Shown: piece by piece, positions 3,029 to 43,284 of the stretch
How positions within the stretch are numbered: the first letter of the stretch is position 1
Layout of the letters: each line of letters opens with the position of its first letter
Source of the DNA: Cryomorphaceae bacterium
GTDB taxonomy: Bacteria; Bacteroidota; Bacteroidia; Flavobacteriales; Schleiferiaceae
Assembly: GCA_020832345.1 (NCBI GenBank)
Contig: JAFIEY010000058.1
Location: forward strand, 1-43,284
DNA: 43,284 nt
Reading direction: 5' to 3'
Program-made: the position numbers and the translations under genes
The notes under the pieces: generated by a model
The model's input: only the letters and a program-made list of their open reading frames with translations
Databases searched by the model: none
What the model was told of the DNA's origin: nothing

Positions 3029-6000
3029 CTATCGTATGATATTGACCATACCCCTTACTTCCTTAAACTTTTCCTTGTCATAATCATTCCACTCGTAGAG
3101 TATGATGTAAATATATGTGCCTGTTTGCGCCGGGGTTCCGTTTAGTGTGCCGTCCCAAAAATGGGTTGGGTTGTTGCTTTGAAATACGCGTTGTCCCCAT
3201 CGGTTGAATATTTGAATATCAAAGCTGGTAATTTTGCAATCGCAACCGTAAGCAAAATAATCATTTACGCCGTCATTGTTGGGCGTAAACGTATTGGGTA
3301 TAAAAAACGGGCATTCGCAATTCTCTTCTGACAACCGCAATAGTTGATCATACATGCCGCAACTGTTGGTTACTTTATAGGGATAATTTCCCCCGGCAAA
3401 GAACTGTTTTGTCAGGGAGGTGTCTCCGTCATACCAGGACACCACGCGATGGTTTTCTGCCGCGAGATTTAGGGTAAAGCTATCTCCTTTACAAAGCATT
3501 CTATCGCGGGGTTCATCGGGAAGCTCTTCGTCAAAACCCACTGTTATGGTATCGCCATAAACGCCGCAAGAATTTTCAACAGAGGCTGAATATTTTCCGG
3601 GGACATGCACTTCAAAAGTATGCCCCTGGTGATCTTCATTCCACCGAACAGTATGTCTGGTGGGGACATCAGCCGTTAGAATGAGTGGTGCATCGGATTT
3701 ACAAATAAATGTATCGGGGCCCAAATTGAGTTCCAGCGGATATTCGTCGGCCAACCAAAAGGTATCGGTGTAAGTGAAGCAGCCGTTATCTACCATAAGT
3801 GTAAAAATTCCTACTTGCGACAAAAGTGCGGATGGTGTGGTGTCTCCCGTACTCCATAGATAACGCAAATCACCGGGAGGGCCATAAACCCGGGCATAAT
3901 CTGCATCAAAACATTTATACACGGTATCGAGGCTAAATTCGGGAACGCCCAGAAAAGTCACCTGAATACTATCTGATCTGGTTCCGCAAACGTTGGTCAC
4001 TTCTACAATATACAATCCGGTGGTATCCACTGTTATTTCCCTGGTCGTTTCTCCGGTGTTCCACAAATAAGTAGAATGAACATTGCCGGCATTTAGGACC
4101 AATGATTCCCCGTCGCACATAATGGTATCTTCACCAAACTGCACGCTTACGGGATCCACCACAATTACCTCAACAGAGTCTCGAAGGAAACCACAATCGT
4201 TTTCAATATCCACGTGATACCAGCCGGCTTCGGAAACTGTCAATCTTCGGTTGCTGCTGCTATCGGAATGCCAAAGGTATCTGCTTCCGGGGTTTCCCGC
4301 ATCCAGCATTATGGAATTCCCTCGACAAACGGTAACGTAAGTCCCTAAAATGCTGGCTGGTGGGCCGGTAATCAGAACGTTTATTACGTCCACAATGGTA
4401 TCGCAGCCATTAAATACCTGTACCCAATAATTACCACTGGTTTCCACCGTCCATGATGGCCCAAACCAACCATTAAACCATTTATATCGTTGGTTGGGAA
4501 TGGGGGCAAACATCTCCACAGGACCTTCGCAAACAATGATGGAATCCGAGTATTTAAACATTGGGAAAGGTTGGTCAAAAATCACGTGAACTGAATCCAC
4601 AATGGTATCGCATACATTACCGATGGTAATGGCATAATGCCCTGTTTGCGTCACCGGTTGGTTGAGTGCCTGAAAATTATTATTCCATTGAAAAAACGTA
4701 CCATTGGTGTCTGGCTCCAGCCAAACTGTATCGCCAATACAGGAATAGATCAAAGGCAACATGCGCCGTTTGGGAACATAAATCATGTTTACCATAATGG
4801 TATCGTAGAGTGTGTCGCAAGTATTGTGTTTTTCCAAAACATATTGCCCCGGACTACTGATAAATACTATGGGATTAAAGCTATAAATACTTCCATTTCG
4901 ATACCAATTATATTCAAACATTCTGGAATCTGCCGCGTTGGGATCGGTCACGTCCAGACGCAAACCCACGCCCTCACAAAGGGTGGTGTCGTTTGGTAGA
5001 GAAAAGGGGGTTAAATCCGGAATGATATCAATATACATGGAATCGGTGAGTGTATCACAGCGATTAAATGCCGTAACAGAAATCCAACCGATGGTGTCCG
5101 GATAGATAAAAGCCGTTGTGTCACCGGTACTCCAAATAAATCGCAGGGAATCTCCGGGCGGCCCCATAACTGGATGGGACCCCAATCTGCTTTGACAAAT
5201 TTCAAGGGTATCGTAAGGCAAGGAATCAGGCGGTAATAGGGTGTAAACATGCATTGTATCCGAAACGCTTCCACAGGCGTTAGACAAAGTGACATATATC
5301 TGGGTGTATTGATCCACAATTATCGTATCACCTCCTCCCCCGGTATGCCATGCAACGTTTGTTCCCGGTGGTGGATCAATTATTAACTCGAATGGCCCAC
5401 ACAACACGGTATCCGGCCCTAGATCAATAGAATCTAAGGGGAAAACTTCAATTACGGTAAAGGTAACGGTATCTTTAACACATGGGCCATCTATATAAAC
5501 CGAATAAGTACCAGGGGCAGTAATCCAACTAAAATTTCCGGTTGTATTGTTGCTCCATTGTACCGAGGTGTTTGGCGGCAGAGATGAAAGGGCTTGCACA
5601 AGTACAGAATCCCCATCACAAATGCCGATGGAGCTTTGTATTTGCACCTGTGGTGTTGGTAATACGGTTACATGAACACTATCGGTATAAGTGCCGCAAT
5701 CGTTGGTAACGGTGGCCCAATACCATCGTGTTGTAGTGGCCCACATGGTATTGCTTGGGCTACCATTGTGCCACTGAATGCTGCCGAGTCCGGGTGGCAC
5801 AAAAAGTTGATAATTTTCGCCTGCACAAATAACTGTATCAGGCCCCAAATCAAAATTAGGTTGATTACTGTAAACCACCTGAAATGTATCGGAAAAAGTC
5901 CCACAAGCATTGGTCACACTGCCCCAATAGGTGCCTGGGGTGGTGACCAGCAGTGAATCCGCAGTTGAATTATCACTCCACAAAAAACTCGAACCTTGGG

Positions 6001-9382: not shown

Positions 9383-11617
9383 ATGAACACCACATATCCC
9401 ACCGTCAACTTTGACGCTGCAAAAGAACTGGGTCTCAATGAAGAAGAGTTCCTAAAGATCCATGAAATTCTGGGTCGCGAACCCAATTTTACCGAACTTT
9501 GCATGTACTCCGCCATGTGGAGTGAGCATTGCTCATACAAAAATTCAATCATTTGGCTCAAAACCTTACCCAAAGACGGCCCACACATGTTGGTAAAAGC
9601 CGGGGAGGAAAACGCAGGTTTGGTTGATATTGGCGAGGGACTGGCATGTGCCTTTAAAATTGAATCCCACAACCACCCCTCTGCACTAGAGCCTTATCAA
9701 GGCGCAGCCACCGGTGTTGGCGGCATCAATCGGGATATTTTCACCATGGGTGCTCGCCCCATTGCCCAACTCAACTCCTTGCGGTTTGGAAACCCAAAAG
9801 AAGCACGAACCAAATGGCTACTTAAAGGTGTGGTTAAGGGCATAGGCGATTACGGAAATGCCTTTGGTGTGCCCATTGTGGGCGGCGAGGTTTACTTCGA
9901 TGAATGTTATCACCAAAACCCATTGGTCAACGCATTTTCCGCAGGCATTATGGAAGTGGGCAACATGATTAGCGCTACCTCCAAAGGCCCCGGAAATCCC
10001 GTTTACATCGTGGGTTCAGCAACCGGAAAAGATGGAATACACGGCGCATCCTTTGCTTCAAAAGACCTGAGTGAAGATTCTGCCAACGACATTCCCGCCG
10101 TTCAGGTCGGAGATCCTTTTCAAGAAAAACTCCTTTTGGAGGCCACACTCGAACTCGCACAAAGCGGTATCATCGTAGGTATGCAAGACATGGGTGCCGC
10201 AGGAATTATTTGCTCTACCGCAGAAATGAGTGCTGCCGGAAAATGTGGAATGGACATTCAACTCGACAAAGTGCCACTTCGTCAAGATCAAATGGAGCCG
10301 TGGGAAATCCTCCTTTCCGAATCACAGGAACGCATGCTTGTGGTGGTTCAAAAGGGTAAAGAAAAAGAAATGAAAGCCATTTTCGACAAATGGGATCTCA
10401 ATTGCGCCCATATTGGAGAAGTAACAGAAGGTGATACCTTGCAGTTTTTCTGGAACGGTGAAAAAATTGCCCACGCGCCTGCCGAATCACTGGTGCTGGG
10501 CGGTGGCGCTCCCATTTATTATCGCGAATACCGCAAGGCTGCCTATTACGATCAGTTACAAAACTTCGACATCAGCGAGGTTGAAGAGCCGAAAGACCTC
10601 CGCAAAGTGGCAACTTTTATGATAGGCCTTCCCAATATTGCTTCCCGTAAATTCATCATCGAACAATACGATAGCATGGTGGGCACAGTCAACATGAGCA
10701 CCAACAACCCCACGGATGCTGCGGTAGTGAACATCAAAGGAACCAATCGGGCACTTGCCATGACCGTGGACTGCAATTCACGATATGTATTTGCCGATCC
10801 GGAAGTAGGCACCATGATTGCGGTGAGTGAAGCCGCTCGGAATATCGTATGCTCGGGCGGATTACCTTCAGCGGTTACCAACTGTCTCAACTTCGGAAAC
10901 CCATACAACAAGGAGGTTTACTGGCAATTTGTATCTGCCATCAAAGGAATGAGTGCCGCTTGTGAAATGTTTAAAACCCCGGTTACCGGAGGGAATGTGA
11001 GCTTTTACAATCAAACCGTGCTCAAAGAAAAAACCGAACCGGTATTCCCCACGCCAACCATCGGTATGATTGGAATAATTGAGGACAAAAAATTCATCAC
11101 CACCATTCCGTTTAAGGAAAAAGGCGATTTAATTTTCTTGCTCGGTCAGGTTCGGGAGGACATCAACTCTTCGCAGTACTTAGTGCACTACCACGGAATT
11201 GAAAACTCGCCTGTCCCCACCTTTAGTTTAGAAGCAGAAAATGCCCTACAAGAGCAATTGAAAATGACCATTCGCGCCGGGTTGATAAAATCGGCGCACG
11301 ACGTTTCCGAAGGCGGTTTATTTTGTTGTTTAATGGAAAAATCCATGCCTTCGGGTATGGGATTCGACATTACCATTCCCGCAGAAATTCGTCCCGATGC
11401 CTACCTCTTCGGAGAAGGACAAAGCCGGGTGATTGTGACCGTGAAGCAAGAAGACGAAGCCGACTTTATCGACAATATGATGCTCAACGGTGTCGCCTTT
11501 GACCTATTGGGTCATGTTACCAAGGGTAGCATTCGCGTTGACGATGAAGATTGGGGAGACGTATCGGAATACAAAGCGATTTACGATACCGCATTAGAGA
11601 ACATCATCAATACGTAA
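9383..11617 (+). CDS. purL: phosphoribosylformylglycinamidine synthase subunit PurL (small type)
   Basis: Purine biosynthesis step four: ATP-dependent conversion of FGAR to FGAM, cytosolic. 744 residues is the length of the small PurL used with separate PurQ (glutaminase) and PurS; these are not in the window. Motifs run in the family order: [54 protein letters not shown] with [25 protein letters not shown], the glycine-rich [29 protein letters not shown], the second-half [25 protein letters not shown], and AHDVSEGGL. No lesion is visible. A Bacteroidota promoter lies just upstream and a tiny membrane ORF seven bases after the stop. Confidence 0.97.
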
Positions 11618-40089: not shown

Positions 40090-40273
40090 AGATTTTAATT
40101 CAAATGCAAATATAGGAGAGAAAAGCAAGGCTTGGAAAGGGACTGTGGTAGGTGTTCAAACGATATTATGAAATGGGATTAAGTCCGCGAAAAATATCCG
40201 CTTTGATTTTTAATGAATGCCCGTCAAGTGTTTCATCCAACTTCATATTCTTGCACGCAGAGGTTTGTTTTGT

Positions 40274-40420
40274 GGGCGCCAAATCGCGCTTTCCGCTGCA
40301 AGTCCTCGTCCAAAACCACCGTGGCCGCGTCAGCCGGCAAGGAGCTCCTACCGTCGCTCTTGCCAGCTGGCGGCCACTGGCGTTTTGGCCTGCGGGCTTT
40401 CCGCTGCAATCGCGGGCGCG
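40274..40420 (-). repeat. GC-rich structured repeat, copy B
   Basis: Read on the minus strand it begins GCGCCCGCGATTGCAGCGGA and AAGCCCGCAGG and ends GACGAGGACTTGCAGCGGAA, AGCGCGATTTGGCGCCC. Same ends as copy A with a different middle. The two halves share TTGCAGCGGAAAGC, and the outer GCGCC and GGCGC can pair. Long frames on both strands are by-products. Confidence 0.7.
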
Positions 40421-40467
40421 GCGCGTGGGGCATAATGACCGACCCACACAAAGTTTCGTTTTTTTCA

Positions 40468-40584
40468 GCCACGAATGAATACCAATACGCACGAATATTT
40501 TATTCGTGAACATTCGTGTAATTCGTGGCAATACAAATGCGTGTTGTTAGCGGTGCTACGAAGTGTTTTTTTCGCCACGAATGA
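40468..40584. repeat. cluster of ACGAAT/ATTCGT repeats
   Basis: GCCACGAAT at 40468-40476 and ATTCGTGGC at 40521-40529 form a perfect 9-bp inverted repeat; between them are ACGAATATT, ATTCGTGAA and ATTCGTGTA, and another GCCACGAATGA follows at 40574-40584. Simple CCACGAATTACACGAAT-type repeats are widespread in bacterial intergenic DNA. The stretch 40585-40748 shows nothing. Confidence 0.6.
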
Positions 40585-40748: not shown

Positions 40749-42392
40749 TTATGGACTGGCTTTATCCAGTCTTAAATTAATAAATTCTTTGATAACAAAA
40801 CTTAGGCTATCAACTTTATCAGGATATAAAATCACTTCGGATTCAATATTTGAGCCATTCCAATAAAGTAGAACCGGATTCCGTATTTCTTTTGAATAAT
40901 AGTTCCTCAACTCCTTGTTATCTTCAAAATTCACGTAAGCTGAATTAACTTTTTTAAGGCTTGGATAACTTTCACCTATTTCATGCTCACAAAATAAATA
41001 GATCTCATTCTTCTTCATGAACTCAAAATTATCGAAATAATATTGCATTGAATTTTTCATGCAATATGGACACGATAATGACGGAATTAACAGAACAACG
41101 CTTCCCTTCGGCAAACTGAATTTTTGGAAGTATTGGCTTAGCGTTTTTATTGGTTTAATATCATCTTCTAATTCCTTCAATTCTTCAACTCGTTTTTGAT
41201 TTGAACGTTTGAAATTTAGTTCATAAAAATAGATATCAAGTTCATAATGGTTATTTTTATTTCTGTTTGCCCTAACAAACAAAGAATCCATATATCCAGG
41301 AATAGGGAGAGAAGTGTAAAAACGTAGAGGTTTCATGCCTTCTGCAATTAAGTTTAATTTGAAATCGTAAACCCCGAACCATTGATGAGAATAATTGAAT
41401 TCAGCATATTCGGATTCACTTAAGCCTTTTGGAACCGGTAGAGTGGCAAACCTAACTATATATTTATTCTGATGATCAATAATAATATTACTGAAAACGG
41501 GGCTATTTGGGTTTCTGTAGATTTTGTTTTCCACACCAGCAGCCAACTCATAAGCATCATCAATCAAATGATACATGTTTTTCGGCTCATGCAGAATATT
41601 TCCAAGTGTATCAGCAATTATCAACTTTCGATTTCCTTGTAGTGAAACAACAATAGAGTTTTTATTAATTGCCCGAGCCTTGGTATTTAACTTCTGGTCG
41701 ATAGAATAATTACCCTCTCTAAATAGCGTTTCTGATATTGAGATAGGAATTCGGATAAAGCCTTGGTTTTCATTGTTAAAATCAACATATCCCAATGATG
41801 GCACTCCATTATTTTCTGCTGATTTTATATCTTCGAAAAATGCTGGATTAGGAGTAATAAACAATCTGTTTTCTGCGATATTAAAATTTTCTAATTCATG
41901 CCCAAAATAAGAAGTACTTGAATCATATGTTTCGTCTTCGTGATATAAAAAAGTACCTCCTCTAAGATTTACAAACGAAATCAGGTCTCCTTGATTATTG
42001 ATAATTGCCAACAGTGAATCATGATAAGGACGGTCTAAGTTGCTAACGTCTCTTAAAATCAAAATTGAGTCATTATTGTGGTAATGGAAAAGAAAAATTG
42101 GATAAAAATCTTTTTTTATAAACTTAACTGGTATTATTCGTGAAACTATCTGGTGATCAATGTCAATTTCGATTAAGCATTTCTGGTTTACTGAATTTAA
42201 CATTAAAAAATTGGTGTCACCTCTTTTGTAATGCTGATTATATGTGCTAAATGAATGCTCTATTGGTAATTCAATTCGCAGAGAATCGACCAACTGAAAA
42301 TAAGCTTCCGTAAAATAATTATCGACTTCAACTTCTGTGCATGAAACAAAGAGTTTCAACAAGAAAACCAATTTTAATAATCTTATTGTCAT
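40749..42392 (-). CDS. DUF4221-like propeller lipoprotein with C-terminal thioredoxin-like domain
   Basis: 547 residues. Signal LLKLVFLLKLFVSC, lipidation at Cys 18. Residues about 25-430 are a predicted beta-propeller of the DUF4221 sort (NQHYKRGDTNFLMLNSVNQK, GEXYXXXX-type strands such as NSIVVSLQGNRKLIIADTLG, NKYIVRFATLPVPKGL). Residues about 440-540 look like a thioredoxin-type fold: VVLLIPSLSCPYCMKNSMQY has a CPYC motif at the expected place after a strand, followed by EIYLFCEHEIGESYP and PVLLYWNGS. So the protein may carry out thiol-disulfide exchange at the envelope. It is downstream of the Cys-rich lipoprotein gene with a strong hairpin between. Confidence 0.75.
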   Translation of the reverse strand: MTIRLLKLVFLLKLFVSCTEVEVDNYFTEAYFQLVDSLRIELPIEHSFSTYNQHYKRGDTNFLMLNSVNQKCLIEIDIDHQIVSRIIPVKFIKKDFYPIFLFHYHNNDSILILRDVSNLDRPYHDSLLAIINNQGDLISFVNLRGGTFLYHEDETYDSSTSYFGHELENFNIAENRLFITPNPAFFEDIKSAENNGVPSLGYVDFNNENQGFIRIPISISETLFREGNYSIDQKLNTKARAINKNSIVVSLQGNRKLIIADTLGNILHEPKNMYHLIDDAYELAAGVENKIYRNPNSPVFSNIIIDHQNKYIVRFATLPVPKGLSESEYAEFNYSHQWFGVYDFKLNLIAEGMKPLRFYTSLPIPGYMDSLFVRANRNKNNHYELDIYFYELNFKRSNQKRVEELKELEDDIKPIKTLSQYFQKFSLPKGSVVLLIPSLSCPYCMKNSMQYYFDNFEFMKKNEIYLFCEHEIGESYPSLKKVNSAYVNFEDNKELRNYYSKEIRNPVLLYWNGSNIESEVILYPDKVDSLSFVIKEFINLRLDKASP

Positions 42393-42430
42393 ACTTAACT
42401 ATATGTTTTAGAAGAAATATACCTGTAATT

Positions 42431-42466
42431 AAACACAAATACCGAATGAATTCGGTATTTGTGTTT
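42431..42466. promoter_or_regulatory. 16-bp perfect hairpin between the lipoprotein and the propeller-thioredoxin gene
   Basis: AAACACAAATACCGAA (42431-42446), loop TGAA, then TTCGGTATTTGTGTTT (42451-42466). On the minus strand, the transcribed strand here, it comes directly after the stop codon of the small lipoprotein gene and is followed by AATTACAG rather than by a U-run, so it is not a classical terminator. It may stabilise the upstream message or reduce readthrough into the large gene. Confidence 0.6.
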
Positions 42467-42475
42467 AAAAAAACT

Positions 42476-42931
42476 TTACATTCCAACATCCTGTTTAAAA
42501 ACAAGCACAATATCGCCACCTCCACTAACAGAGTGCCTACATTCATTTCCTCCCGGAGGACAATAAATATATTTAGCTCCACAATTTGTTACTCCTTCTT
42601 CCTTTTTTTTGTCAAAATTTAAACCATAGTGTAGCGTCACATCATCATCCTCAAAAATATAAATTTCTGCAAAAGCTGGAGTATTTGACCCAGAATCTAC
42701 TTCCTGAGTCAATAAGTATATTTCCAGATAATCCACATCTGGATGTAGAGGCTCGTAATCGCTAGGAGCAACTTGTACCTCCCCAAATTGACTGTAATAC
42801 TGAATAATTGGGTTTTGAACTTGTGCTTCAAAACTTGCATTATCAGATGGTGATTCTAAACTCAAATCCTCTTTATTACAAGCAACGCCAATTAAACATA
42901 AACTTGCAACCGAAAACAAGAACTTTTTCAT
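42476..42931 (-). CDS. small lipoprotein with Cys-rich C-terminus
   Basis: 151 residues. Signal KKFLFSVASLCLIGVAC with lipobox GVAC. A middle part without Cys (YYSQFGEVQVAPSDYEPL, DYLEIYLLTQEVDSGS, FAEIYIFEDDDVTLHYGLNF) is followed by a C-terminal part with Cys in GVTNCGAKYIYCPPGGNECR, then HSVSGGGDIVLVFKQDVGM. Three Cys close together after the lipid Cys suggest disulfides or metal binding. No family recognised. The large propeller-thioredoxin gene lies 83 bases downstream. Confidence 0.7.
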   Translation of the reverse strand: MKKFLFSVASLCLIGVACNKEDLSLESPSDNASFEAQVQNPIIQYYSQFGEVQVAPSDYEPLHPDVDYLEIYLLTQEVDSGSNTPAFAEIYIFEDDDVTLHYGLNFDKKKEEGVTNCGAKYIYCPPGGNECRHSVSGGGDIVLVFKQDVGM

Positions 42932-43085
42932 AGTGAAAATAAATAAAAGTAAACATCACCAAGCCCGTCTTGGCACCAGAAAAACAACCGCTGTTTTTCG
43001 TTGATAAAATAAAAAGGTCTTTTGAGAATATCCTAGTCGTATTTCGACTAAATTATTTTATCTGCAACTAATTAAATTAAAACCA

Positions 43086-43284
43086 TGACAAATATAGGAG
43101 AAAATATCAAACGATACAGGGATTATCGCCAATATAGCCAAGAGTATATGGCGAGTAAACTCAACATTACCCAAAGCAGTTATGCGAAGTTGGAAAAGCA
43201 AGACACCAAACTCACGGTAGAACGTTTGCAACAAATTGCGGAAACATTGGATGTTGATGTGAGTCTTCTGCTAAACTCCGCTAC
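43086..43284 (+). CDS. XRE-family helix-turn-helix protein, cut by the window end
   Basis: The first 66 residues are a complete XRE-type helix-turn-helix: IGENIKRYRDYRQYSQEYMA, SKLNITQSSYAKLEKQDTKL, TVERLQQIAETLDVD. The frame runs off the end of the window. It is divergent from the lipoprotein gene at 42476-42931, with 154 bases between, so it may regulate that cluster. Confidence 0.88.

Follow-up and report, generated by a model that had tools for sequence, protein, structure and literature searches.

Genes and features of the locus

The window, the whole stretch of 43,284 nt that was analysed (contig JAFIEY010000058.1 of a Cryomorphaceae bacterium), carries two lipoprotein genes in tandem on its minus strand, the large one beginning 83 nt downstream of the small one, with a perfect hairpin in between:

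42476..42931, minus strand: gene of the small lipoprotein, 151 aa (open reading frame; lipobox Cys18 followed by NKED)
42539..42562, minus strand: C-x6-C loop of the small protein, CPPGGNEC, Cys124-Cys131 (sequence and comparison with relatives)
42429..42468, minus strand: junction hairpin, a perfect 19-nt inverted repeat, proposed to be a leaky terminator or mRNA-processing element
40749..42392, minus strand: gene of the large lipoprotein, 547 aa, with a DUF4221-like propeller and a thioredoxin-like domain (open reading frame, hhalign)
41061..41072, minus strand: CPYC active-site motif, residues 441-444, in the thioredoxin-like domain of the large protein (sequence)
43085..43282, plus strand: divergent XRE-type regulator gene (HTH_3, E 5e-12), which runs off the contig; a neighbour, not a conserved part

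The elements named in a preliminary description of this DNA (the two open reading frames, the cysteines, the CPYC site, the XRE gene and the hairpin) are all present in the sequence. As a member of the system the XRE gene fails: none lies beside the other copies within the loci read, and a role as dedicated, conserved regulator was rejected. On the opposite side, 3' of the large gene, a GC-rich stretch (40213-40510) is followed by near-palindromic CACGAATG.../...ATTCGTGG repeats; the stretch resembles GC-rich intergenic repeats on other contigs.

Neither lipoprotein has a direct match in Pfam or NCBIfam. The first 390 residues of the large protein nevertheless align with DUF4221 in a profile comparison (hhalign 99.6%, E 1e-23, 337 columns), as does the propeller in a second one (98.9%, E 1e-17). 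By sequence profile (E 0.0013) as well as by fold (E 2.8e-9) the top match is 3s9j, a DUF4221 protein of solved structure; the fold search used a weak AlphaFold model (pLDDT 48) that was built, like that of the small protein, from three sequences. The window protein itself gives no hit at the Pfam gathering score of DUF4221 (PF13970), whereas a direct homologue (G005:C1) is above the cut-off (31.5 vs 23.4 bits). What had been a guess at a propeller is therefore backed by DUF4221 homology, from both profile comparison and structural search. The remaining C-terminal part is related to thioredoxin-like lipoproteins whose genes directly follow those of DUF4221 at other loci (hhalign 97.5%, E 6e-12). 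Further comparisons confirmed both assignments, and the window gene therefore fuses two genes which most of the class keeps apart.

The model, in its best-predicted region, places the CPYC motif at the junction of a strand (431-436) and a helix (442-454), and both C441 and C444 are invariant in eight relatives of the large protein. Pfam evidence for a thioredoxin family consists of a non-significant Redoxin match in one relative alone (E 0.086), and a PDB sequence search with the thioredoxin-like lipoproteins gave no match. In the separate lipoproteins the first cysteine of the motif is invariant (13/13), and the second is lost in three of the 13 (CQGA, CQGA, CPGT).

The small protein has three cysteines near its C-terminus (C115, C124, C131), all of which had been considered part of the system. 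Alignment with five relatives narrows this to the C-x6-C pair, as Cys124, Gly128 and Cys131 are invariant, while Cys115 is a variable extra. A K-(D/E)2 rule after the lipobox cysteine describes the surface-export signal (LES) of lipoproteins (PMC5080379), and by this rule the CNKED of the small protein makes a location on the cell surface fairly likely. C-x-K is present in 21 of 23 small lipoproteins. The AlphaFold model (pLDDT 53) is too poor for a fold search. A reading as bacteriocin with a GG leader was not supported; the small protein is a lipoprotein without such a leader.

Copies of the pair and the class-wide operon

The genome itself holds three complete pairs and what looks like a fourth divided between two contigs: the end of contig C166 interrupts the small gene, and contig C82 begins with a thioredoxin-like tail. 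In the pair on contig C178 the large gene is truncated before the thioredoxin-like domain, and in that on C209 CPAC takes the place of CPYC. Among relatives, one genome (G005) has a single small/large pair, another (G016, i.e., CP051243.1, Flavobacteriales bacterium isolate ih4) has two tandem small genes before the large gene, and a third (G037) has two tandem pairs; the large gene occurs without a small gene in G013 and G029 (Phaeocystidibacter luteus). A search of genome contigs with a narrow alignment gave two loci only, and a search of a plasmid collection gave no match.

Beyond these relatives, the reading covered 30 DUF4221 loci in 25 of 395 Bacteroidia genomes. In about 16 of these loci a gene for a small exported, cysteine-bearing protein lies immediately upstream, and in many a gene for a thioredoxin-like lipoprotein overlaps or adjoins downstream; one locus (L107) carries the fused propeller-thioredoxin form. 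A second search, anchored on the thioredoxin-like lipoprotein alone (23 of 325 genomes), yielded eleven complete modules absent from the first set. The order is that of small exported cysteine protein, junction hairpin, propeller and thioredoxin-like lipoprotein, every part of which is found in the window. Flanking genes vary between modules, indicating that the three genes form a free-standing operon. The operon was thus reached from two independent anchors, DUF4221 and the thioredoxin-like gene, and is widespread rather than specific to the window. The pair, for which the preliminary description had proposed a search in other Bacteroidota, recurs from the genome to the class level; its genes are not apart in most genomes.

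The cysteine loop recurs with it. C-x6-C occurs in 17 of 25 small partners, compared to 4.6 expected from shuffling, and other spacings depart less; nine of the 25 are family-level partners, among them the window protein and its close relatives. For the modules found via the thioredoxin-like gene alone it occurs in 8 of 11 small partners (0.9 expected). Among the 21 C-x6-C loops, position 5 is Gly in 14, and the second cysteine is preceded by Asn, Asp or Glu in 18. Some small partners have no C-x6-C. Where present, it is probably a disulfide loop.

Several observations concern the surroundings of the copies. A conserved promoter and structured 5' leader heads the small genes on C178, C209 and C166, as well as genes for unrelated secreted proteins or lipoproteins, both in this genome and in the genus (L078:1592-1780, L035:4361-4455, L039:6009-6110, L073 at 1857-2056, 3980-4113 and 11387-11549, L074, L075, L040 and L077), perhaps also, more weakly, an SpvB/Rhs-like gene on C125. 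Its 5-pair stem has changes on both sides in three pairs. The conserved leader has no match in Rfam, in which leaders and junctions gave none at gathering level, and it is possibly a new regulatory element of an exported-protein regulon; integron-type attC sites in the leader were considered and rejected, given how its core-like sequences are ordered. No second copy of the leader that precedes the window pair occurs in the genome. Four small contigs (L074, L075, L040 and L073) combine toxin-antitoxin-like genes, DUF4143-like ATPase genes, leader-headed exported genes and GC-rich intergenic repeats, as a cassette-like island whose repeats probably break the assembly. On one of them (L073:1-2200, G012:C39) a non-homologous small, cysteine-rich exported ORF with an apparent ATA start and the same leader is followed by a perfect hairpin (GTAAACACCATT...AATGGTGTTTAC) and by a 459-aa protein ending in a thioredoxin-like segment with CSGC, i.e., the same architecture in different sequences. 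In the tandem pairs of G037 (L032:3600-7200) a stretch of 556 nt covering the upstream region and the N-terminus of the small gene is shared at 99.8% before the copies diverge, although one copy adjoins an assembly gap, so that part of this identity may stem from the assembly.

Such patterns would also fit a diversifying peptide system, in which secreted signals or antagonists have a constant leader and a variable C-terminus and the propeller-thioredoxin protein serves as maturation, receptor or self-protection partner. Near-identical promoters, leaders and N-termini with divergent C-termini and propellers, in the G037 tandem and between C178 and C209, point in this direction, as do unrelated small partners within one architecture, arrays in which NVEALA peptides pair with propeller-like lipoproteins, and copies in cassette-like regions with toxin-antitoxin-like genes. 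We nevertheless regard this explanation as unlikely: many small partners are lipoproteins of 150-200 aa that should remain attached, the ORFs listed around six modules include no evident transporter, dedicated or of the kind used in RiPP or bacteriocin maturation or transport, the G037 copy adjoins the gap mentioned above, and the activity of the small proteins is putative.

The junction hairpin

At the window junction, the arms of the inverted repeat are 19 nt long, 100% complementary and 2 nt apart; as RNA they form an 18-bp stem capped by a 4-nt loop (-28.7 kcal/mol over an 81-nt stretch; z = -8.4 against shuffles, 0 of 200 as good). The hairpin is thus as perfect as the preliminary description had it, but its repeat is longer than the 16 bp given there.

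Other modules were scored by the best single hairpin in 110 nt around the stop of the small gene. With a threshold of -14 kcal/mol, which was picked after viewing the first set and on which neither the second set nor the rank tests depend, a strong hairpin is found at the junction in 18 of 25 modules of the first set and 8 of 11 of the second (26/36 together). The modules compared are related and not fully independent samples, and with this in mind the junction exceeds windows after the propeller stop (5/34; Fisher p 1e-6), random windows (64/432; Fisher p 5e-13) and DUF4221 genes without a small gene (1/13; p 7e-5). In the second set alone, rank tests give p 3e-6 for the comparison with random windows and p 2.5e-4 for that with the windows after the propeller.

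The hairpin usually lies 2-36 nt before the propeller ATG or within its first codons. In 27 of 28 modules, nearly all of them selected for having a strong hairpin, it ends less than 45 nt before this ATG or at or inside the gene start, and at three loci (L145, L150, L154) the small and propeller genes overlap and the hairpin falls within the signal-peptide codons of the propeller ORF. Behind the hairpin there is thus no space for a promoter of the propeller gene, and the partner must be made by read-through. The hairpin sequences are unrelated between modules while the position is the same, as expected if the hairpin sets the ratio of small to large product.

A rival explanation would be that the small gene stands by itself and ends in an ordinary terminator, in a neighbourhood kept by passive co-inheritance without joint function. 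The hairpins of C178, G005 and G016 look like intrinsic terminators, and at some loci the intergenic distance reaches up to 90 nt. Against this stand the lack of promoter room and the overlapping genes described above, and the recurrence of the pairing over many families with the thioredoxin-like domain fused in some, so that we consider an ordinary terminator very unlikely. In the 8 nt after the hairpin the T fraction is 0.53 over a background of 0.31, in keeping with weak terminators; in the window itself the sequence behind the hairpin, TTACAGG, makes a poor U tract.

The proposal that the hairpin gives more of the small product than of the large one thus gains a class-wide position without promoter room, though the excess itself is deduced from that position; on this ground, the small protein is likely made in excess over its partner.

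A proposed thiol module and its relation to known systems

We tentatively propose an exported thiol module, in which a propeller-thioredoxin partner handles the disulfide of a cysteine-loop protein present in hairpin-set excess, a reading that falls only a little short of an even chance. The small lipoprotein with its C-x6-C loop would probably sit on the cell surface and be transcribed together with its partner, and the hairpin just before the partner gene would act as leaky terminator or as processing or stability site, leaving the small protein in excess; a role in mRNA stability, as in the puf operon (PMC6238624), would give the same effect as a weak terminator. The DUF4221-like propeller may bind the small protein or a ligand common to both, and the thioredoxin-like domain, via its invariant first cysteine, could form, isomerise or break the disulfide of the small protein. 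Co-occurring conserved cysteines on both sides suggest such a redox exchange, which we hold to be somewhat less probable than the module as a whole, and the three of 13 separate thioredoxin-like lipoproteins without the second cysteine count against simple thiol exchange.

The same parts could instead serve ligand or metal capture, with a surface propeller that binds a cofactor, metal or small molecule, an abundant small lipoprotein that relays it via its cysteines, and a thioredoxin-like domain that keeps these reduced. After DUF4221, fold matching ranks BtuG2, BT2095, BT1954 and BtuK1 next, all of them surface propellers of Bacteroides that bind B12, and the published iron-dependent stimulon of B. 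thetaiotaomicron includes BT0664, a gene for a 6-bladed propeller (PMC10434189). The fold matches, however, derive from the low-confidence model (pLDDT 48), propellers match one another readily, and among the ORFs listed around six modules no TonB-dependent transporter is seen. To our knowledge, moreover, the C-x6-C spacing fits no known metal motif, and ligand capture appears rather improbable.

Extended to the class, the thiol module would be an extracytoplasmic system of Bacteroidia in which surface cysteine-loop proteins are kept in hairpin-set excess and their redox state is controlled by a propeller-thioredoxin partner, with NVEALA of gut Bacteroides as a branch; in this wide form we consider it doubtful. 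The operon nevertheless joins three uncharacterised sets of Bacteroidota proteins, NVEALA-type peptides or cysteine-loop lipoproteins, DUF4221 propellers and CxGC lipoproteins, and with its recurrent RNA element between genes provides each with a testable partner and with a predicted stoichiometry and redox link. As the module is also present in Bacteroides-like genomes, this can be tested in genetically tractable laboratory strains.

The preliminary description knew of no comparable system. This holds for papers, since within a coverage that lacked subscription papers and preprints none was found that mentions NVEAL, NVEALA or DUF4221, and broader searches gave no description of the operon; yet its parts belong to the Pfam families DUF4221 and NVEALA and the arrangement is widespread.

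With the thioredoxin-like extracytoplasmic oxidoreductases of the TlpA/DsbA type the window family shares a CxxC motif that is lipoprotein-anchored and placed at a strand-helix junction; it differs in having no significant Pfam thioredoxin match and in that the second cysteine is dispensable in part of its thioredoxin-like proteins. In the Rhodobacter puf operon, segmental mRNA stability around an intercistronic hairpin helps to produce unequal product amounts within one operon (PMC6238624, citing Klug et al. 1987); the likeness is one of working only, as the genes are unrelated and the action of the hairpin is here deduced from its position.

DUF4221 (PF13970; 3s9j, BVU_1028) shares the fold family, and many of its genes lie in the peptide-propeller-thioredoxin operon, whereas the window protein is below the Pfam cut-off and has the thioredoxin-like domain fused to it.

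The NVEALA peptides (PF14055, Bacteroidales) are similar in that a small exported cysteine protein directly precedes a gene for a propeller-like lipoprotein (L091, L097, L166), and the first set includes two small partners that are canonical NVEALA peptides. In a separate NVEALA search, which covered 17 genes read in 4 of 370 genomes, 16 are followed by an ORF of about 230-400 aa with a signal or lipoprotein start, mostly propeller-like. At one locus (L166, G478:C2:15000-31000) three NVEALA-type peptide genes form an array, each followed by a gene for a propeller-like lipoprotein. A hairpin is present in 6 of 17 NVEALA pairs, compared to 14/204 (p 0.002), and is rarer than in modules of the thioredoxin type; several NVEALA-propeller pairs have no thioredoxin-like gene downstream within the stretch read. 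Neither the window protein nor its genome matches the NVEALA motif or PF14055: in contrast to these peptides, the window protein is a 151-aa lipoprotein without the motif, and its partner has a thioredoxin-like domain.
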